The translations under genes and the position numbers were made by a program. 64,000 bases of DNA, taken from assembly GCF_000424545.1 (NCBI RefSeq), contig NZ_KE384206.1, positions 190,022 to 254,021 of the forward strand, given 5' to 3'. Below, in pieces: positions 1 through 19,600 of the stretch; the stretch's first letter is position 1, and every line of letters starts with the position of its first letter. The notes beneath the pieces are model-generated. The model saw only the letters and a program-made list of their open reading frames with translations, made no database searches and was not told the DNA's origin. Source of the DNA: Butyrivibrio sp. NC3005 (GTDB lineage: Bacteria; Bacillota; Clostridia; Lachnospirales; Lachnospiraceae).

Positions 1-453
1 GACAATTGCAACCCTCTGCTTTTGACCGCCAGATAGCTGTCTTGGATAACTATCTTTCTTTGAAAGAAGACCAACTTTGTTTAGAAGTTCTAATGCCTTC
101 TTAGTTACTTCCTTCTTATCTATCTTTTTCACCTTAACAGGAGCTAAAATCACATTCTGCAAAACAGTCATATGAGGAAACAGTTCATAACTCTGAAAAA
201 CCATTCCAATCTTTTCTCTGATTTTTCGAAGGTTATGTGCATCAGAATTAATCACTTCTCCATCTAGAATAATCTCACCTTCCTGTATATCTTCCAATGC
301 ATTAAGGCATCTTAAAAAAGTGCTTTTTCCGCATCCGGACGGTCCAACAATAACGAGTACTTCGCCCTTTTGTACAGATAAATTTAAGTTTTCGAATATA
401 ATTGTATTTTCGTATTTCTTACTTATATTTTTTACTTTAAGAATTTCACTCAT
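1..453 (-). CDS. Polar amino acid ABC transporter ATP-binding protein (partial, runs off left edge)
   Basis: This is the N-terminal 151 codons of an ABC ATPase of the GlnQ/TcyN class, which powers import of a polar amino acid at the inner face of the membrane. The ATG at 453 starts a protein with Walker A (GPSGCGKST) near residue 38, a Q-loop (VFQSYELFP) and the ABC signature (LSGGQKQRVA) where the window cuts it off; Walker B and the H-loop lie outside. It starts two bases after the upstream permease stop, so the two are translationally linked. It is the last visible gene of the operon that begins at the cysteine-rich leader near 3.7 kb. Cysteine or cystine as substrate is inferred from the binding protein. 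Confidence 0.93.
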   Translation of the reverse strand, partial: MSEILKVKNISKKYENTIIFENLNLSVQKGEVLVIVGPSGCGKSTFLRCLNALEDIQEGEIILDGEVINSDAHNLRKIREKIGMVFQSYELFPHMTVLQNVILAPVKVKKIDKKEVTKKALELLNKVGLLSKKDSYPRQLSGGQKQRVAIV

Positions 454-455
454 AA

Positions 456-1124
456 CTAAACTTTCCATTTCTTTTCTAAAAATCTTGAAAGTAGACTAAT
501 CGGCCAACAAGCTGCAAAGTACAGCAAGAATATTACCAAAAAAACCCAAAACGCAGCATTTGGGGATGCCGTTCTATTAGCTTCTATTATCTGCTGACCC
601 ACTTTTAAGACTTCTACAATTCCAATCATCATTACAAGACTTGTAGTCTTAATCATTCTGGTAATAAGATTAATTGATAAAGGTATAAGCATTCTTACCA
701 CCTGTGGCATAATAATATATCTGTATGTCATAAATGAACTAAGAGAAAGCGCTGCGCTGCTTTCATACTGTATCGTCGGAATGCTCTTTAACGCTCCTCT
801 TACAAGATCCGACATCTCAGCAGCACCCCAAAATGAGAAAACAATAATAGAAGCAGTTTCTGCTGATAAATTTATTCCTATTACTTTTGTTGAACCAAAA
901 TACACAATAAACAGAAGAACCATCTGTGGCATAATACGCACAATTTCCAAGTAGATTTTGGAAAAAAATAATACAACACGGTTATGCATAGCCATTAAAA
1001 TTCCCAGAATAATACCAAGTACCAAACTAATAGCAACTGATATCAAACTTATATTAAGTGCAGTGGAAAGCCCCTCCAAAAGCCTTAGCATATTACTACC
1101 TTTTAATAAAACTTCAAAACCCAT
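456..1124 (-). CDS. Polar amino acid ABC transporter permease (second permease)
   Basis: A HisM/GlnP-type integral membrane permease of about 222 residues with roughly five hydrophobic segments. The coupling-helix region, with its conserved Ala and Gly residues (ALSLSSFMTYRYIIMPQ), is present. I choose the ATG at 1124 (MGFEVLLKG) because GGAG lies just upstream; an in-frame start at 1184 would overlap the preceding permease and lacks a ribosome site. With the permease at 1147-1806 it probably forms the heterodimeric channel. It has a 22-bp gap to the upstream gene and a 2-bp gap to the ATPase. Confidence 0.93.
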   Translation of the reverse strand: MGFEVLLKGSNMLRLLEGLSTALNISLISVAISLVLGIILGILMAMHNRVVLFFSKIYLEIVRIMPQMVLLFIVYFGSTKVIGINLSAETASIIVFSFWGAAEMSDLVRGALKSIPTIQYESSAALSLSSFMTYRYIIMPQVVRMLIPLSINLITRMIKTTSLVMMIGIVEVLKVGQQIIEANRTASPNAAFWVFLVIFLLYFAACWPISLLSRFLEKKWKV

Positions 1125-1146
1125 TACTTTCACACTCCATTTTGTT

Positions 1147-1806
1147 TTAGCCGTTAATAGAAACCACTTTTTTCTCAATAACACTTCCTAGAAAAGATAC
1201 CGGAAGAAGCATTATTACATAGAAAATCACCAGTAAGAACAAAGCTTCTGTAGTATTGTAATAAAGTCCTATAAGGTCCTTTGCTCTAAACATCAAATCC
1301 ATAAGACTAATTGCAGAAAAAACACTGGTTTCTTTCAATAAAAAAATGACATTTGCCACAATCCCCGGTACACTTTTAGAAAAAGCCTGAGGAAGTATTA
1401 CATATATAAACATTTGAGTCTTACTAAAACCAAGTGCAAGTGAACTTTCAGTCTGAGATATAGATACTCCCTCAAGGCCGCTTCTAAAAACTTCTGCCAT
1501 GTAACTTCCACCAAGAAGTCCTAATCCAACAGCCCCGCAAGTGCCTGCTGATATCACGATACCTATCTTAGGTAGTCCAAAATATATGAAAAACAACTGC
1601 ACCAGTAAAGGCGTGTTTCTAAACAGCTCTATGTAAACTGCGACAATTTGTGAAAGAACAGGGATTTTGAAATGCATTATAAATGCTGATAATATACCTA
1701 TTACAAGCGAAAAAGCTATACCAATCCAACCAATTTTTACGGTAAGTAAAAAAGCATCAACATAAGTTGGAATATACGAAATTACAACATTAAAATCCAT
1801 CTTCAA
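1147..1806 (-). CDS. Polar amino acid ABC transporter permease (first permease)
   Basis: A 219-residue permease of the HisM/GlnP family with the N-terminal TM segment, the RNTPLLVQLFFIYFGLP stretch typical of this family and the cytoplasmic ESSLALGFSKTQMFIYVILPQA loop that contacts the ATPase. It lies 78 bp downstream of the binding-protein gene and just before a second permease. It is the partner half of the transmembrane channel of the predicted cysteine importer. Family assignment is secure; substrate is inferred from the binding protein and leader. Confidence 0.94.
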   Translation of the reverse strand: MKMDFNVVISYIPTYVDAFLLTVKIGWIGIAFSLVIGILSAFIMHFKIPVLSQIVAVYIELFRNTPLLVQLFFIYFGLPKIGIVISAGTCGAVGLGLLGGSYMAEVFRSGLEGVSISQTESSLALGFSKTQMFIYVILPQAFSKSVPGIVANVIFLLKETSVFSAISLMDLMFRAKDLIGLYYNTTEALFLLVIFYVIMLLPVSFLGSVIEKKVVSING

Positions 1807-1884: not shown

Positions 1885-2790
1885 TTATTTGTTATCGCCC
1901 TGTTCAACAACAAGTGTATCCTCATAATCAGCACCATACGTATCAATAAGAGTCTTTTCATAATCAGCATGGAAGAACTTCTCTTTTCCAAGTGTAACAA
2001 GCTCGTCATTTAACCACTTAAGAAGTGATTCATTTCCCTTAGATACAGCTGGAGCAATCGTGTCCTGACTTCCAAGTGACGGAATACCTACTTCATAACC
2101 TTCATTTTCTTTAGCAAAGGCAATAACTTCTGTATTATCATTTGCCCACGCAATGCCAGTTCCATTTTCAAAAGAAGTCTTGGCTGCAGCATAAGTGTCA
2201 AACTTTTGAAGCTTTATATCCGGGTAGTTTTTCTCTAAAAAGGTCTCCGCAGTTGTACCAGAAATAACAATAACCTGCTCATCAGAAGAGACTTTTTCAA
2301 TATCTTTTATAACTTTATCCTTGTGTGAAACCACTCCAAGAGCAACATTCATATATGGAAGCGCAAAGTCAACCTTTTGAGCCCTTTCATCTGTCACAGT
2401 AAAGTTGGCAAGAACAATATCCACTTTGCCACTTTCAAGATACTCAACTCTATTTGCTGCTTCTGTAGAAACATAGTTTATCTCCACACCGAGATCTTTT
2501 CCGATTCTGTTAGCCAAATATACATCATATCCCTGATAATCACCATTTTCATCAACATATCCGAATGGATTTTTGTCAGAAAAAACTCCAATATTAATTG
2601 TTCCGCTCTTCTTGATTTCATCTAGTGTCCTGTATACCTTTCCGTTTGCCTTAAGTTTTTGCGCACCATTTTCTCCATTTGCAGCATCACTTTTTCCGCA
2701 AGCACCAAGCATAGACGCTCCAAGTACTAGCGCAAGTGCTCCTGTAATAATTTTTTTTGCCTTTATATTTTTAATAAGATTCTTTTTCAT
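1885..2790 (-). CDS. CjaA-like cysteine/polar amino acid substrate-binding lipoprotein
   Basis: A 301-residue extracytoplasmic solute-binding protein. A lipoprotein signal ends in a lipobox (LGACG) near residue 31, followed by a short Ser/Gly-rich linker and the SBP_bac_3 fold. The stretches GYVDENGDYQGYD, EAANRVEYLESGKVD and ANFTVTDERAQKVDF, together with the later GSQDTIAPAVSKG, follow the pattern I know from CjaA of Campylobacter, a cysteine-binding protein; this is from memory of the family, not a search. It feeds the two permeases and ATPase downstream. Cysteine or cystine specificity is an inference that the Cys-rich leader upstream supports. Confidence 0.92.
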   Translation of the reverse strand: MKKNLIKNIKAKKIITGALALVLGASMLGACGKSDAANGENGAQKLKANGKVYRTLDEIKKSGTINIGVFSDKNPFGYVDENGDYQGYDVYLANRIGKDLGVEINYVSTEAANRVEYLESGKVDIVLANFTVTDERAQKVDFALPYMNVALGVVSHKDKVIKDIEKVSSDEQVIVISGTTAETFLEKNYPDIKLQKFDTYAAAKTSFENGTGIAWANDNTEVIAFAKENEGYEVGIPSLGSQDTIAPAVSKGNESLLKWLNDELVTLGKEKFFHADYEKTLIDTYGADYEDTLVVEQGDNK

Positions 2791-2827: not shown

Positions 2828-3448
2828 TTATAACAAGAACGGACTTATTTTTTCAATTATTGCCTTAGAAAGATTCCTGTGTCCCTCCTCATCCAAATGC
2901 TCCTCATCAATATGACTTGCCTTGGCATAATCAGAAGCTGCCAAAAAACTATACCCATTTTCTAAAGCAAACTCTTTATAGTATTTCTTAAGCTTGGTAC
3001 TAACCTTTACTGAATCTTTGTCAAATTCCGGATCTTTATCCTCTCTCCATACATCCTCACCAAGATAAATTGGAGATACAATCAAGATTTTGTCTGGCGG
3101 CAGGTATTTTACAATTTCACTTACACACAGTTTTAAACCACTGATTATCGTATATGCATTATTGTGAAATAAAGCCTTACAATCATTAGTTCCAAGCATA
3201 ACAATTGCATAGTCAATAGGAGTAATTGTTTCAAGTACCATCGGAAGAACATCAATTGCCTTTCTCAAAGGTCTAAGTTCATCTTCAAATACTGTAGTTC
3301 TTCCACAAAGTCCTTCCTCAATTACTCTTACGCCTTCTAAATTTTCCTGAATAATGCTAGTCCAGCGAATCCCCCATGGAAATCTATCTTTTGTACCAGG
3401 AATAAGCCCCCAAGTATTCGAATCACCAAATGCTAAAACATTTTTCAT
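2828..3448 (-). CDS. SGNH/GDSL-family hydrolase
   Basis: A cytoplasmic esterase or acyltransferase-type SGNH hydrolase of 206 residues from the ATG at 3448, which follows an AAGGTGG ribosome site; longer in-frame extension would run through the terminator upstream. Block I (FGDSNTWG, Ser nucleophile), block II Gly region (EGLCGRTT), block III (MLGTND) and block V (DEEGH, catalytic Asp/His) are all visible. The pattern resembles the Mycobacterium smegmatis acyltransferase/esterase group. It is the first full-length gene after the Cys-rich leader and lies 37 bp before the binding protein, so it is probably co-transcribed with the importer. Its substrate is unknown; removal of an acyl group from an imported thiol compound is only a guess. 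Confidence 0.9.
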   Translation of the reverse strand: MKNVLAFGDSNTWGLIPGTKDRFPWGIRWTSIIQENLEGVRVIEEGLCGRTTVFEDELRPLRKAIDVLPMVLETITPIDYAIVMLGTNDCKALFHNNAYTIISGLKLCVSEIVKYLPPDKILIVSPIYLGEDVWREDKDPEFDKDSVKVSTKLKKYYKEFALENGYSFLAASDYAKASHIDEEHLDEEGHRNLSKAIIEKISPFLL

Positions 3449-3550: not shown

Positions 3551-3579
3551 ACAAAAAATGAGAGAACATTGTTCTCTCA
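3551..3579 (-). terminator. Intrinsic terminator / candidate attenuator after the Cys-rich leader
   Basis: On the minus strand the stem TGAGAGAAC pairs perfectly with GTTCTCTCA (9 bp, 3-base loop) and is followed directly by six T residues. It lies 40 bases after the stop of the leader peptide and 100 bases before the first ATG of the importer operon. No separate promoter is evident between it and the SGNH gene, so it is placed to act as an attenuator. Confidence 0.8.
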
Positions 3580-3619
3580 GATACATAGACTTTGGCAAAA
3601 AATTTCAAAAACTATATCA

Positions 3620-3721
3620 TCAGCAACACGCCAACTTATCCGCCTCTCTATGTACCTGACAGTTATTCATTAAACAACAGCACATGCAACATGATGATTT
3701 AATAGACATTGTGTTTAACAT
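3620..3721 (-). CDS. 33-residue cysteine-rich peptide, candidate cysteine attenuation leader
   Basis: A short ORF that starts with ATG at 3721, eight bases after a perfect AGGAGG, and ends with TGA at 3620. The peptide has eight cysteines in 33 residues: CC at 11-12, CCC at 14-16, Cys21 and a terminal CC at 32-33. A consensus promoter lies 66 bp upstream and an intrinsic terminator 40 bp downstream, ahead of the cysteine-type ABC operon. A run of codons for the regulated amino acid, then a terminator, then transport genes is the layout of leader-peptide attenuation. There is no signal sequence, so a secreted peptide is less likely. The alternative is a small metal-binding or thiol-sensing protein. 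Confidence 0.75.
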   Translation of the reverse strand: MLNTMSIKSSCCMCCCLMNNCQVHREADKLACC

Positions 3722-3786
3722 AATCTTCTCCTCCTCTTTCACCTATCATTTTTTTAAATAGAATAGGGACTCATTTATTGAAAATA

Positions 3787-3815
3787 ATAATACTTACTTT
3801 TACATACTATGTCAA
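3787..3815 (-). promoter_or_regulatory. Sigma-A-type promoter of the Cys-rich leader and importer operon
   Basis: On the minus strand TTGACA (3815-3810) and TATTAT (3792-3787) are separated by exactly 17 bp. The predicted start of transcription is near 3780, which leaves about 60 bases of leader before the small ORF. It is one of the best matches to the housekeeping consensus in the window. Confidence 0.8.
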
Positions 3816-3895
3816 TAGGTTTATGGAAAAAAATCTATTTTTGCAAAAATAATATATCTCTAACAATTTGCTTTACCATCGTAAATCCCCAAAAA

Positions 3896-4366
3896 TCAAA
3901 TAATCTCTACCACTTCACCTATATACATGTCATGGTCTGGTTGATTCTCATAATACTGAGTTCTTATATCTTCCGGCATATTCTTAACATCTAAAGTCTG
4001 TTTAAAAAGCTTTTTACATACAAGCGTAACTTCTGCTTCTTCAAAAGTCATGGAATGCTCCAGCTGTTTTGGCACAAGACCTGAATCTTTCATCTTATCC
4101 ATATCTCTGCCTGACTTAGAGCCCAAAACAGCCAACGTTTTCTTATATTCATCAGAAAAGAAACTAATAGTAAAATAATCACTATTATCGATAAACTCAT
4201 GTGTATATCTTGTTGTTCTGACATAAACATTTGCAACTGGTTTGCCCCAAAGTGTTCCAAGACCTCCCCAGCTAATAGTCATGGTGTTAAATTTTTCTTT
4301 ATTGCCAGCTGTAAGTAGTGCCCATTTCTTATCATATTGTTCGAAAATATCTGTTTGAAAATTCAT
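3896..4366 (-). CDS. Flavin reductase-like (FMN-binding split-barrel) protein
   Basis: A 156-residue soluble protein of the flavin reductase-like domain family. The N-terminal segment KWALLTAGNKEKFNTMTISWGG is the typical first strand and FMN-phosphate contact region, followed by PVANVYVRTTRYTHEFIDNSDYFTISFF, in which RxTRYT and the FTI strand are family hallmarks. The length is full for the small single-domain group. It probably binds FMN and transfers hydride or senses redox state; its partner is not known. It lies 76 bp downstream of a PTS-type membrane gene, and the strong leader promoter begins just past its 3' end. I see no clear terminator between them. Confidence 0.88.
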   Translation of the reverse strand: MNFQTDIFEQYDKKWALLTAGNKEKFNTMTISWGGLGTLWGKPVANVYVRTTRYTHEFIDNSDYFTISFFSDEYKKTLAVLGSKSGRDMDKMKDSGLVPKQLEHSMTFEEAEVTLVCKKLFKQTLDVKNMPEDIRTQYYENQPDHDMYIGEVVEII

Positions 4367-4442
4367 ATTATGCTCCCTTCTTCAAAAACATATTTAATAC
4401 AATTTCATTCAATAATTTTATTAATCACCTGCAAAGATTTCC

Positions 4443-5534
4443 TTACGCAAGTTTCATATCTCCATCCTCGACCCATCCAAGTCTCTTTACAAAAGCATTA
4501 ATCAAAAGTGATAAAACAGCTGGAAGTATAATAGCTATCATCACAAGTCCAACCCAGTCAAAGCTTGTTACTGATGCCTTAACTCCTGCGTGAACATCAT
4601 TTACCCAGCCAGTGTACACGCCAATAGGACCGACCATTCCACATGTACCCATTCCTGATGATACAGGTGCACCATTCATCTGTAATTTGAACAGACATGT
4701 TGCAAGAGGCCCAGTTATAGCAGAGCAAAGTGTTGGAGCTATCCATATTCTAGGATTTTTAACAATATTTCCCATCTGGAGCATAGAAGTTCCAATACCC
4801 TGAGATACTAAACCGCCCCACTTATTTTCTTTAAAAGAAATAACTGCAAACCCTATCATCTGTGCACAACAGCCAGCTACAGCAGCGCCTCCGGCAAGAC
4901 CTGTAAGACCAAAAGCTGCACATATAGCCGCTGACGAAATTGGAAGAGTTAAAGCTATACCTACAAGAACAGAAACAATGATTCCCATGAAAAATGGATG
5001 AAGCTCGGTTGCCTTCATTATTACATCTCCAAGTAGCATCGCACCCTTTCCAAGTGGCGGGGCAATAAGCCAGGAGAAAAATACTCCAACTCCGATTGTA
5101 ACAAGTGGAGTTACCAGAATATCAACCTTAGTCTCTTTTGAAACAGCCTTACCAATCTCTGCAGCCAGAATTGTTACAAACAACACAGCCAAAGGGCCAC
5201 CTGCACCTCCAAGTGCATTTGCCGCAAAACCAACTGTAATCATAGAAAAAAGAACAAGCGGCGGACATTTTAGCGCATAGCCAATAGCTGTAGCCATGGC
5301 AGGACCACTCATAGCTGATGCAAGACCTCCAACGGTATATTCCTTCCCTGCTATTGTAGCTACAGTACTAAGAAGAAAACTAATCCCAAACTGTTTTCCT
5401 ATAGTATCTATAATAGTACCTATGAGAAGTGAACAAAAAAGTCCCTGTGCCATAGCACCAAGTGCATCAATTCCATAACGCTTCAAAGAAATCTCAATAT
5501 TTTTTCTCTTTAAAAAATCCTTAAACCTACTCAT
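4443..5534 (-). CDS. PTS EIIC-like integral membrane protein (PTS_EIIC_2 family)
   Basis: A 363-residue polytopic membrane protein with about ten hydrophobic segments and long glycine/alanine-rich stretches (ALGGAGGPLAVLFV, GLTGLAGGAAVAGCC). It matches the PTS_EIIC_2 family of orphan EIIC-like transporters, found in Firmicutes without cognate EIIA or EIIB subunits; none is encoded nearby. The C-terminal part has GAPVSSGMGTCGMVGPIG, a conserved Gly/Cys-rich loop of this family. Substrate unknown; a sugar or other small solute is possible. It is upstream of the flavin reductase-like gene and may be co-transcribed with it. Confidence 0.8.
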   Translation of the reverse strand: MSRFKDFLKRKNIEISLKRYGIDALGAMAQGLFCSLLIGTIIDTIGKQFGISFLLSTVATIAGKEYTVGGLASAMSGPAMATAIGYALKCPPLVLFSMITVGFAANALGGAGGPLAVLFVTILAAEIGKAVSKETKVDILVTPLVTIGVGVFFSWLIAPPLGKGAMLLGDVIMKATELHPFFMGIIVSVLVGIALTLPISSAAICAAFGLTGLAGGAAVAGCCAQMIGFAVISFKENKWGGLVSQGIGTSMLQMGNIVKNPRIWIAPTLCSAITGPLATCLFKLQMNGAPVSSGMGTCGMVGPIGVYTGWVNDVHAGVKASVTSFDWVGLVMIAIILPAVLSLLINAFVKRLGWVEDGDMKLA

Positions 5535-5837
5535 ATCCCTCTCTCCATCTAACGTTACTATTTACTTGAAATTATATCCTGTAACGAATCTAATTGAAAT
5601 TTAATGAAAAATTCACCCAACATTTCTTATATTATCATAGGTTCATGCTTTTGTCAGAAGCAAAAAGCAGGTCTTCACATTTTTTAATGAAAACCCGCTT
5701 TCTACTACCTCTTTATATATATCTTTTAAAAGCTTTAAAAAATCACAATCTATTGTACTTACAACACCTGTTGGTACTCAACATAATTTTCTTTACTTTT
5801 TCTTTACTTTTTCTTTCCTTTCTTCTGACTGCCCATA
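5535..5837. other. Intergenic region with no gene; imperfect terminator-like hairpin
   Basis: I see no convincing coding sequence here. On the minus strand an imperfect stem (AAAGCGGGTT paired across a loop with ACCTGCTTT, about 5660-5703) is followed by a short T run and may end the transcript of the MATE-GHKL gene. The rest is AT-rich and without repeats that I could match. Confidence 0.45.
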
Positions 5838-5878
5838 TGGTCTGGTACGGTTATTGTTTTCCTGGTGAAAACAATAAC
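5838..5878 (-). repeat. Hairpin copy of the dispersed GGTTATTGTTTTC repeat
   Basis: GGTTATTGTTTTC pairs with GAAAACAATAAC across a 5-base loop and overlaps the stop codon of the MATE-GHKL gene. Read on the minus strand, the hairpin and the next bases (CAATAACCGTACCAGACCA) match the segment at 28032-28075, including 19 identical bases outside the stem. It is therefore a piece of a dispersed repeat as well as a possible transcript end. Confidence 0.65.
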
Positions 5879-7611
5879 TAAGGATTATTCCAGCTTACAA
5901 AAATCATATTTTGGCCAAAAGAATATCTATACTCTAAATTATCGCAATAATGAAATACAAGTTTTAGTCCTGTTTTCCTTTTCTTTTCAGAAAAAGATAC
6001 AGGATCAAATGGTACTCCAGCATTTCTAAGAGAAGCTGTCACCTTATTTTCATGAATCATTACAGTTAAATCCATATAGGCATCATCTTTGCATCCAGAA
6101 TAACTAACTATATTCATCATTAGTTCATCGAGGCAGTGAATAATACTACTTTGAAAATCTCCAGTATCATACTCATTCAAAAAGCCTATAAGATATTCTA
6201 TAGCTTCAGCCTTATCATTCATATTACATTTAATAGAAATATCGAATTTCTTTGCTACAGGAGAAGTTCTTGGTATCAGTGATATTAATCTTAGCTGTCC
6301 CTTGGATTTCAGGAATATAACCGTTGTATCTGCAAAAAAAGTCAAAAGACTAAGAATAGTAGTCAACGGAAATGCGAGCCAGATTTTATCTGGAGAAAGA
6401 AAATGCTCTGTATTAGCAAAGGAGGCAACAATTGAGAGCAAAATAAGTAGTGTATTAACTGATGAAATTGTCTGATGTCCTAATACTGTATGAAGATATA
6501 CCATAGACGAAATAATGCCAAGAGAAAACAGCAATATGCATATCATTGGAATTTTTTCTCCTGCAAGTGCTATTTTTTCAGCGGTATCAGCGCCAAACAT
6601 TAGAGCAAGCTGTTTTCCAAACAAACCACCAATACAGAATATAGCTGGAGTTAAAATAGTCACAAAAAAGCCTCTCTTAAACAATACGCACATGCCATAA
6701 TCATCTTCCTGACCCAAAAGCATACCACCAATTGCTGCATAAGACATTCCAACGCCATTTGAAATAATACTTCCTATCGATACAATCGTATACCCTATAG
6801 ACATGACAAACATACCATCAGCGCCTTGATTTGCCATAATGTAATAGTTACATATAAACATAAGTGCCACTGAAGCAAGTTGTCCCAGAAAACCTGGCAA
6901 AGAATGCGCAAGTCCGCTTGCAAAATCTGCTGCCCACGTAGGACATAATGTCATCCGCATACCGCTTTTTTTATAAATATAATATAAATAAATTGCGTTT
7001 CCTGCCAGTGATCCAAATAAAGTTGCAAGGGCGGCGCCTTTTATATCCATCCCGAACACCTTTATGTTAAGAATATCAAAAAGAATATTTGTACCGGTTT
7101 TAACTATAGTGCCAACAGTTACTATTCTAGGATTTCCCATCACATCAACTAGCATAGATGTCCCGTTCTCAAAGATTAAGAGAATAGCACCCATCATTAA
7201 AACTGCTGCGTATTTTTCTGCCATGTCATATAGATTTTTGGCAACACACAGCTTTCCAACTATAGGCTGTGCAATACCTGTCATGGCAGCTATGCTGCTT
7301 AAGGCAATACCCACGATCAGCATGGAAATCATACTGACCGTGAATACCTCATTTGCCTTTTTCTTGTCCATGGCTCCTAAAAATTTTGCTATCTTCATAG
7401 CGGCGCCCTGTGACAATAGTATTCCAATTGCACTGATACAATTAACAATAGGCAAAACAACATTTATTGCTGAAAAGGCATCCGATCCTAATAAACGTCC
7501 CATCAAAATTCCGTCTATGATACTATTCAGATTCATCGCTGTCATAGTCATGATAGATGCACCCATATGAAATCTGAAACTCTTATCTATCAAATATGCC
7601 TTACGTTCCAT
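5878..7611 (-). CDS. MATE-family exporter fused to a C-terminal GHKL ATPase-like domain
   Basis: Residues 1-450 form a MATE (NorM/DinF-like) transporter with about twelve membrane helices, beginning MGASIMTMTAMNLNSIIDGILMGRLLG. Residues from about 465 to 577 form a soluble HATPase_c_2 domain like anti-sigma factor kinases: an N-box (HCLDELMMNIVSYSG), a PFDP G1-type segment and a GLKLV stretch near the end. The gene lies 51 bp downstream of the NRPS, so it is the likely exporter of its product. The ATPase-like domain could gate export or signal to a regulator by nucleotide binding or phosphorylation. MATE-GHKL fusions are known in Lachnospiraceae genomes; their role is not. Confidence 0.88.
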   Translation of the reverse strand: MERKAYLIDKSFRFHMGASIMTMTAMNLNSIIDGILMGRLLGSDAFSAINVVLPIVNCISAIGILLSQGAAMKIAKFLGAMDKKKANEVFTVSMISMLIVGIALSSIAAMTGIAQPIVGKLCVAKNLYDMAEKYAAVLMMGAILLIFENGTSMLVDVMGNPRIVTVGTIVKTGTNILFDILNIKVFGMDIKGAALATLFGSLAGNAIYLYYIYKKSGMRMTLCPTWAADFASGLAHSLPGFLGQLASVALMFICNYYIMANQGADGMFVMSIGYTIVSIGSIISNGVGMSYAAIGGMLLGQEDDYGMCVLFKRGFFVTILTPAIFCIGGLFGKQLALMFGADTAEKIALAGEKIPMICILLFSLGIISSMVYLHTVLGHQTISSVNTLLILLSIVASFANTEHFLSPDKIWLAFPLTTILSLLTFFADTTVIFLKSKGQLRLISLIPRTSPVAKKFDISIKCNMNDKAEAIEYLIGFLNEYDTGDFQSSIIHCLDELMMNIVSYSGCKDDAYMDLTVMIHENKVTASLRNAGVPFDPVSFSEKKRKTGLKLVFHYCDNLEYRYSFGQNMIFVSWNNP

Positions 7612-7662: not shown

Positions 7663-10600
7663 CTATTTGTCACTTGGTTCCAGCAACTTCTTTACCAAAT
7701 CCTGATAGAACGGATGCAATGAAGTGCTAGTAAATATACCACTATGAGAATAATCCTTAAACTCATGAATTTCTGCATCTGGCGCATAGAAACCAAGCGC
7801 ATCCATCTTATCCTTCATAAGTTTATCTGTAGAATTCTTGCATGCATTAAGGAAAATAACTTTTCCGTTATATGGGACAAGAGAATTCTCACAACAAATC
7901 TCATGAGTCATATTGGTAAGCTCAGTCAACATCTCAAGTTCTTCTTTGGTATATTCATGTTCCTTTTGCTCGAAAGAACCAATGATTTCCCTGAAATAGT
8001 CGGTTGTAACTTTTTCAGGTTGATGCTTACCGGCTTTAGGAAGAGTCGAATCGCCCATGATTGTAACAACCTTCTCTCCGGTCATCTTCTTGTAGGCCTG
8101 TGCCATACCAAATGCAAGTTCTCCACCAAAGCTAAATCCCATGAAGCCAAATATCTTCGCATCTTCGGGAATTAGAATCTCTGTACTTACAATATAGAAC
8201 GCTACTACATCATCATAATGTTCACCCTGGAATATCTTATCATAGTGATTCTGTACTGGTTCTATAACAACAAGGTTGAAATACTTACTCAAAAGCTTAT
8301 GTAAGTGTTCGGTATCACTCAAAAGAACAATTCCCTGAATGAAACAAAGAGTCGGCTTATTCTCATCATATTCTTCATAAAGCCATGAAATTCTTCTCTT
8401 TCCCTGAATAAATCCACGTATCGATTTATAACGCATAATATCTGATACACGAATCTTCATATTCAGTTCATCTGTTATCCTGCTGGCAAGAAGCATTGTA
8501 CTAAGTGAGTTGAGTCCTGCCAACGTAAGATCATCTGTTACACCAAACTCTTTTTCAGGAAGAATCTGCCTTGCAATTCTAAGGAAGTTCTCCTCAAGCC
8601 TATTAGCCGGTGGCTCATTCTTGAATCCAGCTGTAATCTCAGGTTCAGGAAGCTCTCTAATGTTAATCTTACCATTAGGAGTAAGTGGCATAGGATTCAT
8701 ACGAATATAGATAGTAGGTACCATATATTCAGTAAGAGACTCCGCCATGAATTTCTTAAGCAACTCTTCATCAATATCAGTATCTGATGAATAATACAGA
8801 ACAAGAGTATCCTTCTTTACCTGAGCACAAGCCATAGTAATTCCGTTATACTGTGCTGCTCGGCTTTCAATTTCTCCAAGCTCGATTCTAAATCCGTGAA
8901 GCTTAACCTGAAAATCTATACGTCCAGCATATACTATCTGATGATTTTTGTTGTAATATCCAAGATCTCCTGTGTGGTACATACGTATACCATGAACAAA
9001 CGGACAATCACCAAATACAGCCTTAGTCATATCAGGTCTATTCCAGTATCCATAGCCAACTTGAACACCTGCAATACATATTTCACCACGAACACCTGGT
9101 GGAAGAAGATTTCCATGTTCATCCACTATAAATACATAATTGTTAGGAACCGGTATTCCAATTGGAATAGTGTCATATTGTACTCCATCTTCCAATATGA
9201 AAATTACACTGTCACAGGTACATTCTGTAGGTCCATACAGGTTATAGACTTTGACACTATCACTTACAACACCGTTAAGAGCTTCTCCGCCGCAAGATAT
9301 AAATCTTTGCTTTAGTGGATAACCATTCTTCATAATCTTAGCAAGTGCCGTAGTATATCCACCGCCTGTTATTCTGTGCTCAGTAAGAAATTCAAATATT
9401 CTTCCTGGATCTTTTCTGATACTCTCAGGCATTATGTGAACTGAACTACCTGAGCAAAGCGGAGCATAATAATCTACAATGTGAGCATCAAAAGATAATG
9501 ATCTATGGCAACTAATCCTATCTTCAGGCGTAAGTTCAAACAACTTCCTCATAGAAATTGTATGGTTCATAAGACCCTTCTGATAGATTACCGCACCCTT
9601 TGGGGTTCCAGTTGAACCTGAAGTATAAATCATATATGCATAGTTATCAGGTCCTGTCCTATTAATATGCTCTGCCTTTGTTTGTAATATTTCAGGCATA
9701 ATATCATCTGTCAAAGTAATCTTTGCACCTGAATCTTCCTCAATATAGGCAATACGATCCTTAGGATATGCAAGGTCAATCGGAACATATGCAGCACCAG
9801 CTTTCTGGATACCCAAAATTGATACTACAAATTCCTTTTTCCTGTTCATCTTGATAGCAACAAAGTCGTTTTTCTCTATTCCCTTGGAAATGAGCCAACT
9901 TGCAACCTTATCAGAAGCCTGATCAAGTTCACCATATGTCATACTACTACTTTCGTCAGTCACAGCCTCAGCATCTGGACGTTCCTTAACCTGCTCTTCA
10001 AATAAATCAAGCCAGGTCTTTGAAGTATCATATTCAATTTCTTCGCCCTTGCACATTTCCATAACATTATGCATGTCATCTTCTGCAATCCTAGGAAGAT
10101 TTACTATTGGAGTATCAGGATTATCCGTCACCTCTCTTACAAGTACATCAAAGAGTTTACCTACAGCTTCAATTTCTTCCATACGATAATGCCTGCGATT
10201 GAAGGTGAGGTTAATACAAAGTCTTCCCTCCTTATCGATATACATTGCAGGGGTAACTTCATCAAAGTTTTCTTCTTTGAAAACCACAGGCTTAACAGAA
10301 AATGCATACTCAGCTTCATCGTCATCTTCAAGACCACTATCATAATTCTCAAAAGCAATAATATTTTGGAACAAGTCAGATCCAAGCTCACTTTGCTGCT
10401 GAATCTCTGCAAGCGGACAGAAATCATACTTATTACTTTGAGCTGCCTGCTTCTGAAGATTTCTTAACATCTGACGCGTTGTCGTATCAGGCTCAATCTT
10501 TACTCGTACAGGCACAGAATTTATAAACAGTCCTACAAGGTTGTTGACATCTACTGATGTGTTATCTCTACCAGATACAACTTTTGCAAATACAGAATCA

Positions 10601-13600
10601 TCTGTTCTGCTATAGGTCTGCAGAACAAGTCCCCAGCAAAGTTCGATACCATTACTTATGGTCGCTCCTTCGCTGTTGCAAAGAGCAAGGAATCTATCAG
10701 TAATGTCCTTATCAATAGTCGTAAGAACAGAGTCTTTTTTGCTCTGCTGATTAAGCGGAACATCTCCAAGTGATGGAATTTCCGTCTTAGTCTCGTACCC
10801 ATCAAGAAGATTTCTCCAATAAGAAAGTCCTTCTGCCTTATCTTTAGAGATAATCTCTCTTACAGCTTTTTCATACTTACCATTCTCAGGAGCACTATCT
10901 GTTGTACGTTTTCCGGTGATTTCTTCATTTAAGAATGTAAAGAAATCACTTGTATAGATTCCCATACACCATCCATCAACAATAGCATGATGAACAGCCA
11001 TAACAAGATAACAGCTCTTATTATCTTTCTTTGCACAGGTTAACTGGAACAAAGGCTTTCTTTGCAGTTCAAAGGCATCATTAAGAATCTGTATTCTTAG
11101 ATTCTCAACAGCCTTAACCTTATCCTGTTTTTTGCTCAAATCCACCATAGTAGGAACAAGTTTTCTGTCAATAATAGCCTGTCTAGACTTCTTTACACCA
11201 TCGTAGATTATCGCTGTACGCAGTACCTCATGCTTTAATGCAAGTCTGTCTAGTGCCAAAGACAGCTCCTCTTTAGTAGGTAATACATTTAGTTCCAATA
11301 TAGTAACAATTCTGTATGCCCAATCCTTAGGATTTGAAAGATACTTATACAACATACCTTCCTGCATCGAGGTAAGCGGATAAATTCTCTCGATTTTTTC
11401 TCCTCTGGAATCAAAATCTTTAACAACCTTTTTAAACTCTCTAGTTGTCCATTCTGTTTCACCAAAGTCACTTGCTGTAAACTGCTTTTCATTAAGCATA
11501 GACAAAAATGTAGCAATTTCAGACATATTGCTTAGTATCTTCTTTGTAAATTCCTCTATCTGCTTACTATCATAAAGCTTTGAATTATAAGTCACATAAA
11601 GGCAGAATTTACCATTTTCTACCAATGCATTAATGGATAATTCACAACCAAAGGTGTTCTTAGAAGAAACAGATGCACCTGTTTCAACATCTGCTATACC
11701 AAGAATTGCATCATCTGCTGCCTGTTCACTATCCATCTCACCAAGATAGTTAAAGCCAATACGTGCAATATTGTCACCACAGCTTGTAAATGAAGTTTTT
11801 CCATCAAGGAACCTTAGTACATTATATCCTACACCTTTGTTTGGTACTCTATGTAAAGTCTCCTTAACCTCACAGAAAGTATCCTTCAAATTACCACTAA
11901 TGTTCTTTAAAATAACTGGATATATAGAAGTAAACCAACCTACCGTTCTATCAGTTACAAGGTTTTCTCCTATATCTTCTCTGCCGTGCCCTTCAAGCTG
12001 AACAGATACACTTTTTTCTCCTGTCATCTTGAAATAGCTCATACCAACGGCTGTAAGAAGAGCATCATTAATATCAGCATTCATCATTCCAAAGTTAGCT
12101 TTAATAAACATGCTGGTAGCTGCTTCATCCATTACAGCAGAGGATAAGCTTATCTTTCTGTCATAGTTCTTCTCATTAGAGACTGGAAGACTCATCAGTT
12201 CGTTTTGAACATTTTCCCAATATGGTATTTCTAATGATAACTTATAACTCTCACGGTATTTCTGCAAAGCTTTCACATAGTCGTTATACGTGTTGGTCTT
12301 TGCAGGAAGATTAACCTTCTCGTTATTCTTTACATTTTTAATCGCTTCTTCAAGATCAGATGTAATAATACGCCATGAAACACCATCAACTACAAGATGA
12401 TGAACTGCCATGAAAAGATATTCCTGTGCGTTTACATGAATAAGCACGATACTCACAAGAGATTTAGTCACATCAATAGATGCCTGAATTTTTTCACAAA
12501 GTGCAGGAATCTCTTCCTTCGAATTAACTTCGATATCCTGAATAGTAAACCTTGTATCAGCAGGACGGACAAATAGACAATCATCCCTGCAAACAGCTCT
12601 TAACATATCATGCTGATAGAAAACTGCATTAACTGCCTCTTCAAGAACATTAATATCGCAATGCTCATTAAGTTTCCACAAAGTAGACTGAGCAAAATGC
12701 TGTTTATCAGGCAGTTCCAGGTACTTGAAATACTTAACAATAGCAGAATCAGGAACACTTCCGGTAAACGGACTTTGTGAAATAGAAGAAGCTTTTTCTT
12801 TTGCCTTAAGGACAGCTGCAATTTCTCTTACTACCTTAAGCTTCATGATATCTGAAACCTGAATCATGAAACCAGCCTGTCGAATAAGACTAACCATACG
12901 AATAGCTCTAATGGAATCTCCACCTATTTCGAAGAAATTATCCAAAGCACCGATAGGATCTGATGATCCTAAAACCTTCTGCATGCTTTCTGCTACAATC
13001 TTTTCCTCATCTGTCTCTGGTTCAACGTACTCAGCAGAACTTGACTGCATAAACTCAGGAAGAGCACTTCGGTCTATCTTCCCAATCGGTATCCTATCGA
13101 TGACGCTGTTAAAGCCTCTTTGCTTTATACCCATCGAAATATCGCCAATCTTCCTTGCACTTGTCATGCTTTCTGCTGCCTTGCAAACACATGAAACAAG
13201 CTGCTGCATATCCTCTTGTCCATAGGAAGTCTTATCATATTCAAGCATAAGAACATAATTGCCCTTATCCGGGTACATTGTTAGAAGTATCGGGAACTTA
13301 GCAGTATCAAGCGTTAACGGAATAGACTTCTGCGCATCAACCAACTCTTTGTCAGCTACTCCGCCTTGCCATGCAACCATAATATCCGCATGAATACGAT
13401 GCTTTTCAACTATCCTGGTATAAGGATAGATTTCACGCTCAAACGTCATCTGCAATTGTTTCTGCATAGCCTGTACGTAACCAGCCACCGATTCATCACC
13501 GTGACCATTATTATTCCATTCAAAAACAACAGGAAGAGTCCTTACATACATACCAACAGTATTCTGAAGCGCACTGTCAGCTGAACGACCATTACTGATA

Positions 13601-16600
13601 GTGACATACATTGGCTTATCTTCAAGCGTAATATTGTAAAGAACTTCAGCAAATGCAGCTTGCAAATAATTACCTGCTGTAACCGCATAACGCTTACAGA
13701 ATTCATCAATTGGCGCAGCATCTACCTTCTGAATAATCGTTCCTACCATATTTTTACTTGAATCCTTCTTAATATCAGGTTCTTTTGACAATGGATAGGA
13801 CGCACTTGTTACACCTTCAACAAGACTGTCGAAATACTTCTCAATCTCGTCAAAAGCATCGCTTTTTATAAATTCCTGTTCATATACAGCATAATCAAGT
13901 GCCGTAACAGTTTCTGCATTACTTTCAATTCCTTTAAGCTCAGAGCGCAAATCTTCAAGGAAAACAGCTGATGAAAGGCCATCATAAATAATATGATGAA
14001 TATCCATAAACAGATAAACTTTTTCCTTAAAAGTAAAAATCTTTATCCTGTAAAGCTTTTCATTTAAAAGGTCAAATGGAACAATAAGCTTCTGGAAAAA
14101 TTCTGCATCAGGACATGTATCAAGCTCGCTTATCTCAATATCCACCGCTTCATCCATAAACGGCTTTTGCATAATGTCTTCATCTGTTTGAATAATGCGA
14201 GTCTTCAAATATGGATGAAGTTCCATAGTCTTTCTAACAGCCTCTGCCAATTTGTCAGCAGTTATTCCAAAGAACTCATATACATTAGGAATATTGTACT
14301 GCGTAGTATCATGATTCATCTCAAAGTCAAGATAAACACCACGCTGATTCTCTGTAATAGGGTAAACATCTCTATCAGGATAATGGATCAAACGTTTATC
14401 TTCTGACGACGAAGAATCTTCTTTCTTACTACATGCAATAATCTCACGCACACTAGGATTCTTTAATATATCTGCAACTCTAAGCTTAATAGAAAGCTTT
14501 TCTTCAAGTGCAGCTGCAAGGCGCATTGCAGCAATAGAACTCATACCTTGTGAAATAAGGTTTGTGGTAACACCAAATTCCTTCATACCAAGAATGTCAG
14601 CCACTACCTCAAATACTTTCTTCTCTTCGTCAGTTTCAGGCGCAACAATTTCTTCTGAAACAGTTTCAGGTTCCGGAATAGCTCTTCTATCAACCTTACC
14701 ATTTGCATTAAGAGGCAAATCTTCAAGTCTCATATAGACTTGAGGAATCATAAATTCAGTAAGAGTCTCCGACAAATGTTTCTTAAGATCATCAATGTCA
14801 ATCTCTTTATCTGAAATATAGTAGCAACATAGCTGTGGATTCTTACCCTTAACATCAACAACAGCCTGAGTAATACCAGGATACGACAGTACTCTGTTCT
14901 CAATTTCACCAAGCTCAATTCTAAGTCCGCGCAGCTTAACCTGCTTATCTATTCTTCCAAGATAAACAACATTTCCATCATCATCCCAGCTTACAAGGTC
15001 ACCACTTCGATATGCTCTTACAGAAGGGCTGTCTTTTAAAGGTTTAAAGTTAATAAACTTCTCAGCTGTCAGTTCTTCTCTGTTCATGTAACCTCTAGTG
15101 ACACCCTGACCTGCAATAAGAAGCTCGCCTCTTGCACCTCTTGGAACAAGTTTTCCAGCCTGATCAATAATATATAGTTCATAATTTGACAACGGACGAC
15201 CTATAAGCCTTCCTTCAAAATAACCTGGTACATCATAAAATGTCGAAAACAGTGAACATTCAGTAGGACCATATACATTAAGGAATCTGAAGTCAGGAGG
15301 TGTAATAGGAGGCATCTTCTCACCACCTGTCGACAGATATCTTAGTGAATGGTTCATCTCACTTATAAGGCATCCAATTTGCGTAGTCATAAAAGCAACA
15401 GAGACGTTATTCTCTTCCATGTAATCATTCATGGCAAGAATATCCATTCTCATTGCTTCATCAAAAAGATAAATACAGCTTCCTGCAAGTATTGATGGAT
15501 AAAGATCTATCATGTGTGCATCAAAACCAAAGTTAGCATATCCAGCAACATGATCCTTCATCGTAAGCTCAAACTCTGTCACATACCAATGACAGAAATT
15601 AACAATACCGTAATGTTCCAAATCAACTGCTTTAGGTTTTCCGGTTGTTCCGGATGTAAAGAGGATTACAAGTCTGTTATGAGCATCTGGAGGAGTCAAT
15701 TCTTCAATTTCCTTATCAGTAACTTTAGGAAGAGTTTCTATATCTTTACTATAAAATTTTGCTCCTTTATATTCAGGTATCTTTTCCTCAATCAGATTAT
15801 TCTCTGAAAGTATAAGCTTTACACTTGCATCCTCACACATAAAGGAAAGTCTGTCTGATGGGAAATGCGGATCCAAAGGCATATATGCTGCACCTGTCTT
15901 CATTACAGACAAAGGATAGATGAGCATAAGCTCGGATCTGTTAATAAGCACACCAACATTCTGCTCTGGACCAATATGTGCAGTTTTATAAAGATGCACT
16001 GCAAGACGGTCTGTTATTTCATCCAGCTGTCTATAGGTATATGTTTTTCCATGGAAAACAAGACAAGGCGCATCCGGTGTTGCACTAGTCCTGTCCTTAA
16101 ATATCTTAAGAATAGTTTCTGTTTCATCACGTTCAAGTCTTTTACCAAAACCAAGCTTCATAAGCTCTTTTGTTTCAGCTTCATCTACAAGACACACATC
16201 ATTTAATTTGTCAGCTTTAACAAGTCCAAGTGCAGCTGCTGATATAGCTCTGGCAATAATGAGCATATCAGAAGCACTGTAGCGCATTCCATCATACTCA
16301 ACACATATCTTATAGTCATCCTTATCCGGATAAATAGTGACCATGATAGGGAACTTGACCGTATCTAATGAAAGCGGAATTTCTTTAGCTCCTTCAACTT
16401 CATTGGAAATACCACCCTGGAATGCAAAAAGTATTTCTACATGCAGTCTATATTTATCAACAAGCAAAGTATACGGAACCATTTCCCTTGAGTATATTTC
16501 CTGAAGCTGTCTGTGGGTTTCTTCCACATACATAGAAGCAGTTTTTGAATCTCCATCTCCAACGTAGGCAGCAGGAAGAGTCTTGACGAACATACCTACT

Positions 16601-19600
16601 GTATCCGCAAGTCTAATATCAGATCGTCCATTACTTACTGTAAGATATAAAGGTTTGTCTTCTCTTGACAAACGCTTCAGGCAAAGTGCAAATGCCGCCT
16701 GAAGGAAACTTCCCGGTGTAACTTCATGTTCCTTACAATAGTCATCAATCTGAGCCTTATTTACTTTATACTCAACATATCCGTTTTTCTTTTTGTCCGG
16801 AACTTCAGAATCAGGGTATACTACTACCTGAGATTCTGAAATCATATTTTCAAAAAATGCCTCATCTAGAGAATTATTACTTGATTCAAAATAATCCCTC
16901 TCGTAAACAGCATAATCATATGCTGTTATCTCTTCTCTTGACGGCTCTTCTTTCTTCATAACCTTTATAAGGTCATCAAAAATAATGGCTGTAGATAATC
17001 CGTCACAAATAATGTGGTGCATATCCATAAAGAGCCACGTCTTATTATTACAGCTAAAAAGCTCTACCCGGTAAAGGTTATCTGATAACAAGTCGAATGG
17101 CTTTACAAGACTTTGGAAAAAGTCTGTATCAGGCTCAAAATCAAGTTCCTTTATCACAATCTTTGGCTCTTCATCATCATGCGGAACCTGTACAACTTCA
17201 CCTAGAACCTTTGAAAGTCTCATCTTAAGATAAGAATGAGCATTAAACACCTTTATTAATGCATCTTGCAACACTTTAGAAGATGTATTTTCGAATAGAT
17301 AGACTCCTGGCATATTGTACTGAGTTGTCTCTCTATTCATATCCCAGTCAAGATAAACACCTCGCTGGTTCTCTGTTATAGGATAGTTTGGACGATTTGC
17401 TAAATGTTTTAAAACAAGCTTATCATCTTCATAATTACTCTCAAGGCTGGCGATACCACGTACAGTAGGATCTTTCATGATATCTGAAACCTTAAGATGC
17501 ATTCCCATTTCATTGGATAATGCTGCACTAAGACGCATGGTATCAAGAGAACTCATACCTGATGAAACAAGATTGGTGGTAACACCTATTTCACCAAATC
17601 CCAATACTTTTTTGACAATGCTAAGAATAGAAACTTCAAGGTCAGTTTCAGGAGCCACTATCTGTGCATCCTGAATAACAGGGTCCGGCAAAGCTTTAAG
17701 ATCAACTTTACCATTTAATGTAAGTGGCATACTATCAAGACACATATAAACAGAAGGAACCATATACTCAGCTAAAGTTTCTCCCATAAAGCTTCTTAAT
17801 GCATCCTCTGAAATGTCCTTTTCAGGTACATAATAAAGAACTATTCTATCTTTTTTTACCTGAGAAACAGCCTGACGAATACCATCATATGCCATGGCAC
17901 GAGTATCAATTTCTCCAAGTTCTATACGGAATCCATGGAGTTTTATCTGGAAGTCAATTCTTCCAAAATACTCAAGTTCGTCTCTAGAATTATACCTGAC
18001 AAGATCTCCTGTTCTATATATCCTTCTTTCCTTTCCATCAGGAAGGCATATCGTCTTAAAGACCTCATCAGTTTTCTCAGGAAGATTCCAATAACCTGCT
18101 GCAACCTGTGGACCACTAAGACATAGTTCACCAACTGCTCCTTTTGGCAAAAGGTTTCCGCAATCATCAAGAACAAGTGCAAGACAGTTATAAAGAGCTC
18201 TACCAATTGGTATATCCTTATGCATGCCTTTTTCAACTTCGCAATATGTAGCGTCTACAGTAAATTCTGTAGGTCCATATGTGTTATAAACGGTTCCTGT
18301 AATATTAGGTGTTGCAGTCATTTTTTCACCACCAAGAACCATATAATCAAGTTCAAGAGGCTCTTTATCATCACCAAGAAGCTGTCCAAACTGCGTAGTA
18401 TAACATCCACCGGTTATGCCGTTTTCTTTAATATAAGAACGCATAAGATAAATATCTTTACGCACAGATTCAGGCACAATATAAAGAGTGCCTCCCACCA
18501 TCAGTACCGGATATAAATCTTCTACCGATGCATCAAACGCAAAATTAGAATGACAAGCTATACGACTTTTTGAAGTATGTCCCCAACGATCTCTAATAAA
18601 AGAAACAAGATTAAGAACATTACTCTGACGAATTACTACGCCTTTTGGTCTTCCTGTAGAACCTGATGTATAAATAATATATGCATAAGAAGAAGGAGTC
18701 GTATAAATAACCGGCTCAGATACTTTAGTCTTTTTAGCAAGCTCTATAGAAGCATCATCAAGAAGCATTTTGGCTTTTGAATCATTAAGAATATAGTTTA
18801 TACGGTCTTCTGGATAGTCTGCATCTATAGGAATATATGCTGCTCCCGCTTTCCATATACCAAGAACTGCTGCCAAAAAATCCTTGGATCTCGATGTTTT
18901 AAGCGCTATAAAATCATTTTCCTTAACATCTTTATCAATAAGAAATTTTGCAACAGAATCTGATGCATTATCAAGCTGAGAGTATGTATAAGAACCATTT
19001 TCATCTACTACAGCAACGTTTTCAGGATTTTTTTCAACCTGCTCTTTGAAATAGTAAAGCCATGTTTTTGATTCATCGTATTCTTTGTGCTCACCTGTAG
19101 ATATTTTTAATAGTTCCTCAGCTTCTTTTTCACTTACAAGATAAATATCCTTTAGCTGCGCCTTTGGATTACTTATCATATTGTTAACTACACAGTAAAT
19201 AGCTCTTGCAAAGATTTTAACTGTTTCCAGACTGTTTACTGCATCAGAAGATTCAGCACAGATAGCATAATTATTGTCAATATTTTCAATATGAACGTTA
19301 ATATCTGTCTGCGCTGTTTTTCTCTCTATCTCTGTAACCTTATATTTATTATCTCCAATTTTCAAAAATTGATTAAACGGACGGAAGTTAAAAGAAACTC
19401 TTGGCACAATCCCAATCTCTTTATTAAGATGTGGGAACGGATATCTTCCCATAGAGTATGCTGTATCAGTATCTTCAACAATATCCTTGATTAAATCAAT
19501 CACCTTTTTTTCAGGAGAGATCTCAGCTTTCATTGCGACATTGTTAACGAACATACCCTGACAGCGCATCATTTTGCGATTAATTCGTCCATGGTAACTA

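Follow-up and report, generated by a model that had tools for sequence, protein, structure and literature searches.

Ribosome-mediated attenuators of the trp/his type consist of a leader ORF with control codons, an antiterminator sharing the 5' arm of the terminator, and an intrinsic terminator. The ilvB uORF of Corynebacterium has been described as an attenuator of this type (PMC11109978). Polycysteine leaders of mycobacteria are cited as leaderless and as acting by translation attenuation (PMC13236596). The cysteine genes of Clostridium perfringens are under the control of Cys T-boxes, and the authors of that study leave room for further mechanisms in clostridia (PMC2940859).

We analysed a stretch of 64,000 nucleotides of Butyrivibrio sp. 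NC3005 (contig NZ_KE384206.1, positions 190,022 to 254,021; hereafter the window), in which an earlier note had proposed a Cys-codon leader attenuator in front of a cysteine-type importer. Comparison of homologous operons supports this prediction, and we consider it likely that the leader controls transcription by ribosome-mediated attenuation, sensing charged tRNA-Cys, so that the cell would probably make its cysteine importer only under cysteine shortage.

Leader region and importer operon

The features of the locus are collected in Table 1. The consensus promoter, the AGGAGG site, the ORF of 33 codons, eight of them for Cys, and the 9-bp terminator with six T residues, all described in the earlier note, were found on the minus strand. 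The promoter is the best of six promoter-like sites in this A+T-rich stretch, where 3.1 were expected. Cys codons of the leader ORF begin at 3691, 3688, 3682, 3679, 3676, 3661, 3628 and 3625, i.e. in the order CC, CCC, C, CC. The terminator (3579-3559: nine pairs, a loop of 3, then TTTTTTG) is located between the leader ORF and the first gene, and was the one terminator-like site found, shuffles giving an average of 0.1.

Table 1. Features of the leader and importer locus (window coordinates)
Feature	Position	Strand	Basis or remark
CCTATTGACATAGTATG, a possible repressor site that overlaps the promoter	3803..3819	-	motif; putatively Rrf2/CymR-type
Promoter TTGACA-17-TATTAT	3787..3815	-	11/12 consensus matches
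Shine-Dalgarno AGGAGG of leader ORF	3730..3735	-	sequence; 8 nt before ATG 3721
Leader ORF, 33 aa, eight Cys codons	3620..3721	-	ORF listing; peptide MLNTMSIKSSCCMCCCLMNNCQVHREADKLACC
Control codons Cys-Cys-Met-Cys-Cys-Cys	3674..3691	-	sequence
Region 2, putative 5' arm of the antiterminator, within the ORF past the Cys run, UCAGGUACAUAGA	3647..3659	-	complementarity
Region 3, putative antiterminator 3' arm, UCUAUGUAUCUGA	3577..3589	-	overlaps terminator by 3 nt
Intrinsic terminator, then six T	3553..3579	-	stem 3579-3571 with 3567-3559
SGNH/GDSL hydrolase, first structural gene	2828..3448	-	PF13472
Substrate-binding protein (family 3), cysteine type	1885..2790	-	PF00497; 2yjp and 1xt8 best in PDB
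ABC permease 1	1147..1806	-	PF00528
ABC permease 2	456..1184	-	PF00528; listed from GTG, true start probably inside
ABC ATPase, extends beyond the window	1..468	-	ORF; Walker A and signature motifs by eye

Within the 3.87-Mb genome the CC-x-CCC codon pattern occurs in the leader, in four overlapping frames of a single TGY repeat, and nowhere else; as a genus-wide leader finder it was rejected as unspecific, with matches in 78 of 79 genomes. The leader peptide had no Pfam or NCBIfam match, and a peptide search against the other 78 genus genomes returned no clear homologue (best E 0.002). Matches up to E 1 came from 38 of the 79 genus genomes, the window's own among these, and 21 of the other loci, scanned for short Cys-rich ORFs, contained no recognisable leader, so that peptide homology within the genus was abandoned as a guide.

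The closest sequence relatives of solved structure of the binding protein are 2yjp and 1xt8, which we take to be Ngo2014 and CjaA, both cysteine binders; the cystine profile NF008426 also matched, with a score far below its cut-off. The earlier note had the leader standing before a CjaA-type importer: the operon and its CjaA-like binder are indeed there, but the first gene is the SGNH/GDSL hydrolase. A hydrolase gene lies beside the importer in 15 of 117 loci (tblastn; one genome counted twice, one copy cut), and in several relatives it immediately precedes the binding protein gene. In locus L148 it is placed behind the ATPase.

Upstream of the leader, on the same strand (3896-7611), the window contains a flavin-reductase-like gene, a gene for a membrane protein of the PTS_EIIC_2 type and one for a MATE transporter. 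These are followed at 7663-20364 by an ORF of 4233 residues with repeated adenylation-like and condensation-like stretches, by eye apparently a large nonribosomal peptide synthetase.

Putative antiterminator helix

The earlier note reported no clear antiterminator, only a weak pairing of AGAGAG of the ORF with the 3' terminator arm. The latter is missing from the predicted folds and was rejected as an antiterminator, whereas a different and longer pairing was found: positions 3659-3647 pair with 3589-3577 in an ungapped 13-bp helix. Its score was reached by 0 of 4000 codon shuffles, and twice in 4000 when one or the other of the two stretches was shuffled by dinucleotides. Scoring was ungapped, gapped RNAduplex scoring having been uninformative and therefore replaced.

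The helix covers the first three of the nine bases of the terminator arm, or six bases (five of them paired) if the two pairs past a G-G mismatch are counted, and in the predicted fold an 8-bp terminator hairpin can coexist with it. As the overlap is only 3 nt, the strength of the window antiterminator is uncertain. The parts of the leader, their order, the 13-bp helix and its placing, as well as the covariation in relatives (see below), can be read directly from the DNA.

Leaders at homologous importer loci

With an alignment of ten binding proteins, 80 importer loci, mostly of Lachnospiraceae, were retrieved, and up to 900 nt upstream of each was read. A candidate Cys leader is present in 44 of them, and 35 of these 44 have a significant antiterminator helix (codon-shuffle p <= 0.05), which comprises 9-15 bp and begins 6-20 nt (mostly 9-13) past the last Cys codon of the run; its 3' arm begins 11-60 nt past the stop codon and belongs, by eye, to the 5' arm of the terminator. 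A typical peptide is MKTFAINYNSMCMCCCRMLFSRACMKTGCLAHLSCTCTD (L108), and CUCCCGGGCA with UGCCCGGGAG is an example of the two arms. In L088 and L126, for instance, the element has the whole terminator arm in common with the antiterminator. The helix was not significant in nine of the 44 leaders (L087, L110, L114, L135, L148, L133, L070, L071 and L073). The search upstream of homologous operons, which the earlier note had recommended, thus returned leaders that combine a Cys run, a terminator and, within the ORF, an antiterminator arm showing compensatory changes.

In 36 of the 80 loci no candidate leader was seen in the upstream stretch read. Five of these had less than 600 nt upstream; in one of the five, L099, the terminator of the family is visible close to where the contig ends. 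In seven (L077, L079, L091, L098, L103, L109 and L141) a short Cys-containing ORF was judged to be no leader. Homologous operons without the ORF, or without conserved Cys codons, had been named in the earlier note as evidence against attenuation; the former are thus common, but the Cys run is kept wherever a leader exists. Since many homologous operons are leaderless and the antiterminator is not favoured in the stalled folds of five of 34 relatives (see below), the element seems to be a frequent but replaceable layer of control.

The importer is present in 35 of the 79 genus genomes, and of the 36 genus importer loci read, a Cys leader judged plausible stands immediately upstream in 7, namely at the window locus (L001) and in L008, L183, L199, L203, L205 and L206. 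No leader was seen at the Pseudobutyrivibrio loci carrying the hydrolase gene. In genome G048 the element precedes metY and the importer comes after.

Other arrangements were also noted. L112, L114 and L135 have a second leader type, MCMMMCGC(I/M)LQ, with another antiterminator arm, significant in L112 only. In L070, L071 and L073 a short uORF MRNTCFCC(I/M)KGTxY lies 43-154 nt before the binding protein, with a Cys run and no significant helix. L132 contains a seven-codon uORF, MKGCCCR, just before position 5378 of that locus, whose stop codon overlaps the hydrolase ATG, as if for translational coupling.

Covariation in the leader RNA

The helix table had 47 rows, of which seven were dropped (L067, L148 twice, L133, L070, L071 and L073) and six more kept out of the alignment (L112, L114, L125, L135, L138 and the window). 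The resulting alignment, A2, is limited to 34 leaders of the CRM type. The shuffle controls given below ignore relatedness, and A2 includes near-identical rows (L105, L108 and L124; L127 and L128).

The antiterminator of A2 is 92.7% paired, and 7 of its 11 pairs show changes on both sides (27 cells). Four of the five measures were reached by none of 500 shuffles and the fifth, the number of further pair types, by 66; pairing falls to 52-55% when the helix is slid by one column, and RNAalifold gives the antiterminator as the consensus structure of A2 unprompted. The antiterminator is a covarying alternative stem of the kind that the earlier note had proposed to look for. In 13 of the 34 rows a change from Arg CGG to Gln CAG accompanies a C-to-U change in the terminator arm. 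The terminator itself is 90.4% paired, with changes on both sides in three of eight pairs, a value reached by 97 of 500 shuffles.

Two further hairpins are found in A2. P2, inside the ORF, is 82.8% paired, and 7 of its 10 pairs are changed on both sides, a count that none of 500 shuffles reached. P3, after the stop codon, is 74.5% paired (2 of 500 shuffles), with both-side changes in five of six pairs (reached by 154 of 500). In L100 and L118 the nucleotides of P2 are kept despite a shifted reading frame, which argues that this part is selected as RNA. By analogy with the pause hairpin of trp, P2 may time the polymerase against the ribosome. A hairpin of region 2 with the CCGGG directly behind it in the ORF was rejected, its covariation not exceeding that of shuffles.

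Directly behind the Cys run, CGAATG (Arg-Met, A2 columns 19-24) is identical in 34 of 34 CRM-type leaders, even though Arg has six codons, and no partner for base pairing could be assigned to it.

Covariance model and distribution of the element

A covariance model, R1, was built from the 34 leaders of A2, i.e. with the window left out. It matches the window leader end to end (3688-3552) with 20.1 bits and E 0.0028 in 64 kb. This is the best R1 match of the genome, the runner-up having 13.8 bits, with a modest genome-wide E of 0.17; under the stricter filters of a scan of 397 genomes of the family and of a scan of 79 genomes of the genus the window leader was missed. The R1 alignment puts UGCAUGUGCUGUUGUnnnAUG of the window on the family Cys run, and in its register (a structure-fitted alignment) 9 of 10 antiterminator pairs form, three being changed on both sides relative to the consensus and one being broken. 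The window leader has a G+C content of 0.36, compared with 0.38-0.56 in A2.

The CGAAUG behind the Cys run is absent from the window, which has TTAATG (Leu-Met) there. Some weaker R1 matches are likewise without Arg (e.g. MMCCLM in G428 and MCMCWM in G336), and thus CGAAUG appears to be usual rather than defining. Hence we take the window copy to be a divergent, A+T-rich relative of a family occurring in Lachnospiraceae and some other Clostridia.

In the family scan R1 gave 62 matches in 46 of 397 genomes, the window's own being among the 351 unmatched under those filters. In a sample of 391 genomes of the class it matched 15, of which 14 lie outside the family (three of these weak); in the genus, with E values up to 0.1 accepted, 14 of 79 genomes were matched. 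Genes for the synthesis or uptake of sulphur amino acids, encoding MetY, the Cys importer, CGL/CGS-like proteins, CysK, MetN-like proteins or SAM synthetase, follow 49 of the 62 matches. The first ORF behind the match is MetY in 26 cases, a Cys binding protein in 11, CGL/CGS-like in five, GST-like in five, MetN-like in two and a permease in two; CysK, a cystine-type binding protein, SAM synthetase, a cyclase, an SDR, a LysR and an M20 peptidase occur once each, and four are unlabelled. These labels are rough: they were given by BLAST of the first ORF of at least 90 aa against reference proteins (five from the window, others from the same loci), the first ORF is maybe not the first gene, and the ATPase label is loose. 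As for the profiled references, MetY and CysK scored above the NCBIfam cut-offs, and the CGL/CGS, MetN and cystine-binding profiles matched below theirs. Two genomes carry two elements each, about 2 and 3.5 kb apart, respectively (G101:C36:73603-75495 and G450:C9:61113-64702).

Proposed mechanism and predicted folds

In the attenuator that we propose, RNA polymerase would make the Cys-codon ORF with a ribosome following it. When Cys-tRNA is scarce, the ribosome would stop on the CC-M-CCC run and leave region 2 free to pair with region 3, taking the base of the terminator stem; with this antiterminator formed, transcription would enter the hydrolase-importer operon. When Cys-tRNA is plentiful, the ribosome would pass region 2 and reach the stop codon, where it would cover regions 2 and 3 or stand between them; their pairing being hindered, the 9-bp terminator would form and transcription would end. 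We infer both the response to cysteine and cysteine as the substrate of the importer.

Folds were predicted leaving out the RNA behind the ribosome front and assuming a 10-nt footprint. With the ribosome stalled at Cys 1-5 of the window leader, the helix has predicted values of 0.87-0.90 and the terminator base of 0.39-0.51. With the ribosome at Cys 6-8 or at the stop codon the terminator base reaches 0.93-0.94, region 2 being excluded by construction; region 2 is located about 25 nt upstream of the stop codon and may have become exposed again, and termination in the stop folds presumes that the ribosome hinders its pairing with region 3. The antiterminator dominates in the fold without a ribosome (0.99). 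Among the 34 relatives, the antiterminator exceeds the terminator in 29 stalled folds and is not favoured in five (L097, L105, L118, L127 and L128), and with the ribosome at the stop codon the terminator is above 0.5 in 33; L096 was kept in these folds although its terminator is misaligned in A2.

Promoter motif and a second Cys-rich uORF

The CCTATTGACATAGTATG motif at the window promoter resembles CCTATTGACATAGTAGG of relatives, which occurs with or without a leader, and a pattern search found the motif in 44 of 126 upstream stretches (some loci counted twice). In two leaderless relatives, L064 and L091, a divergent gene encodes an Rrf2-family protein (PF02082 above its cut-off); against the CymR profile these proteins score 80 and 95 bits, below the cut-off of 195. 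The window promoter thus carries a putative Rrf2-type operator.

The window's own genome contains a second Cys-rich uORF, MCMELSQHHVRKNRMCICCWIEKMLKPNC, located before metY (L340:1361-1450; G000:C10:96305-96394) behind the motif CCTATTGATTTGGTAGG. No terminator was seen at this uORF, and its fold is no better than shuffles.

Alternative explanations

In the strongest competing explanation the window leader is a relic attenuator that has lost most of the overlap between antiterminator and terminator and allows near-constant partial termination, control by cysteine being exerted by a repressor at the promoter. Such decay would fit the 3-nt overlap, the terminator base that stays at 0.39-0.51 in stalled folds, the CCTATTGAC motif of the promoter, found in leaderless relatives as well, and the majority of genus relatives, which have no leader. 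However, the helix has been kept despite sequence drift, as three of the ten pairs in the R1 register have changed on both sides and yet pair while one is broken, no shuffle out of 4000 that preserved the codons matches it, and both the Cys run and the terminator are intact. We therefore regard a relic as unlikely. It is considerably less probable still that translation of the leader acts via Rho, decay or re-initiation, by exposing or hiding RNA, with the terminator serving mainly as a boundary: the window and 35 of 44 candidate leaders combine a terminator with a matched antiterminator, and the latter covaries beyond shuffles (the terminator's own three of eight pairs do not, with 97 of 500), although Cys uORFs without a detected antiterminator in L070, L071, L073, L132 and before metY of the window's own genome would fit such a mechanism.

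With eight Cys in 33 residues and a Cys run kept by relatives, the ORF might also encode a working peptide that binds thiols or metals. This we consider very improbable, since its C-terminal half is kept as nucleotides while the frame shifts in L100 and L118, the P2 hairpin there shows covariation at 7 of its 10 pairs, which none of 500 shuffles reached, and neither Pfam nor NCBIfam contains a match. Hardly credible at all is a chance cluster of Cys codons next to an ordinary terminator, despite the lack of a clear peptide homologue in the 78 other genus genomes (best E 0.002), given the statistics of the antiterminator and the R1 match. Attenuation responding to charged tRNA-Cys is thus the reading that we retain.

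Comparison with known systems

Rfam 15 at the gathering score gave no match in the window; ten leaderless relative loci gave a single tRNA, and eleven loci that carry the element or a related one gave nothing. A T-box was rejected on the same basis, as neither the window nor any of these 21 relative loci had an Rfam T-box match at the gathering score. Our literature search, which covered few subscription papers and included PMC11955535, PMC6429828 and PMC2864571, disclosed no Cys leader attenuator in Lachnospiraceae.

On balance, we lean towards a broader interpretation, namely that the leaders form an uncatalogued leader-peptide regulon of Clostridia which senses charged tRNA-Cys and jointly controls cysteine and methionine synthesis and uptake; Clostridium perfringens relies on Cys T-boxes instead. 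The hairpin inside the ORF, conserved across frames, would time polymerase and ribosome, and the window copy would be an A+T-rich offshoot with an antiterminator partly rebuilt from other pairs. If so, a leader reading tRNA-Cys, with a covarying antiterminator, before metY, cysK and importer operons would constitute a non-T-box mechanism in Lachnospiraceae genomes that Rfam did not cover in our scans, and the element would point to a link with cysteine for transporters and enzymes whose specificity is unknown.

The Cys T-box of Clostridium is similar in that charging of tRNA-Cys controls cysteine genes through premature termination, but there the T-box RNA itself binds the tRNA (PMC2940859). 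Regular leader-peptide attenuation is described in Firmicutes for the His leader peptides before hisS/hisZ in bacilli, which differ in the amino acid, histidine, and in the genes (PMC2965389). Of the published systems in the texts consulted, the cysS motif uORFC-8-2 and the polycysteine leaders of Actinobacteria come closest. The former, from Rhodobacterales, is likewise a candidate for ribosome-mediated attenuation and combines tandem Cys codons with an intrinsic terminator (PMC8632094). By its description it is set apart from the present element, as it belongs to Alphaproteobacteria, is restricted to cysS and has two Cys codons inside the first stem (PMC8632094). The leaders of Mycobacterium and other Actinobacteria are also Cys-run ORFs before cys operons; in contrast to ours, no conserved terminator hairpin is reported for them in the relevant parts of PMC1262725.

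Attenuation by a ribosome is, as a kind, textbook knowledge, and the Butyrivibrio leader shares with the trp/his systems a control-codon ORF and an intrinsic terminator, and has a putative antiterminator that overlaps the terminator by 3 nt. Unlike them, it uses cysteine codons and places the 5' arm of the antiterminator inside the ORF, about 25 nt before the stop codon in the window, and its relatives carry a conserved in-ORF hairpin between this arm and region 3. The family of Cys leaders appears to be new.
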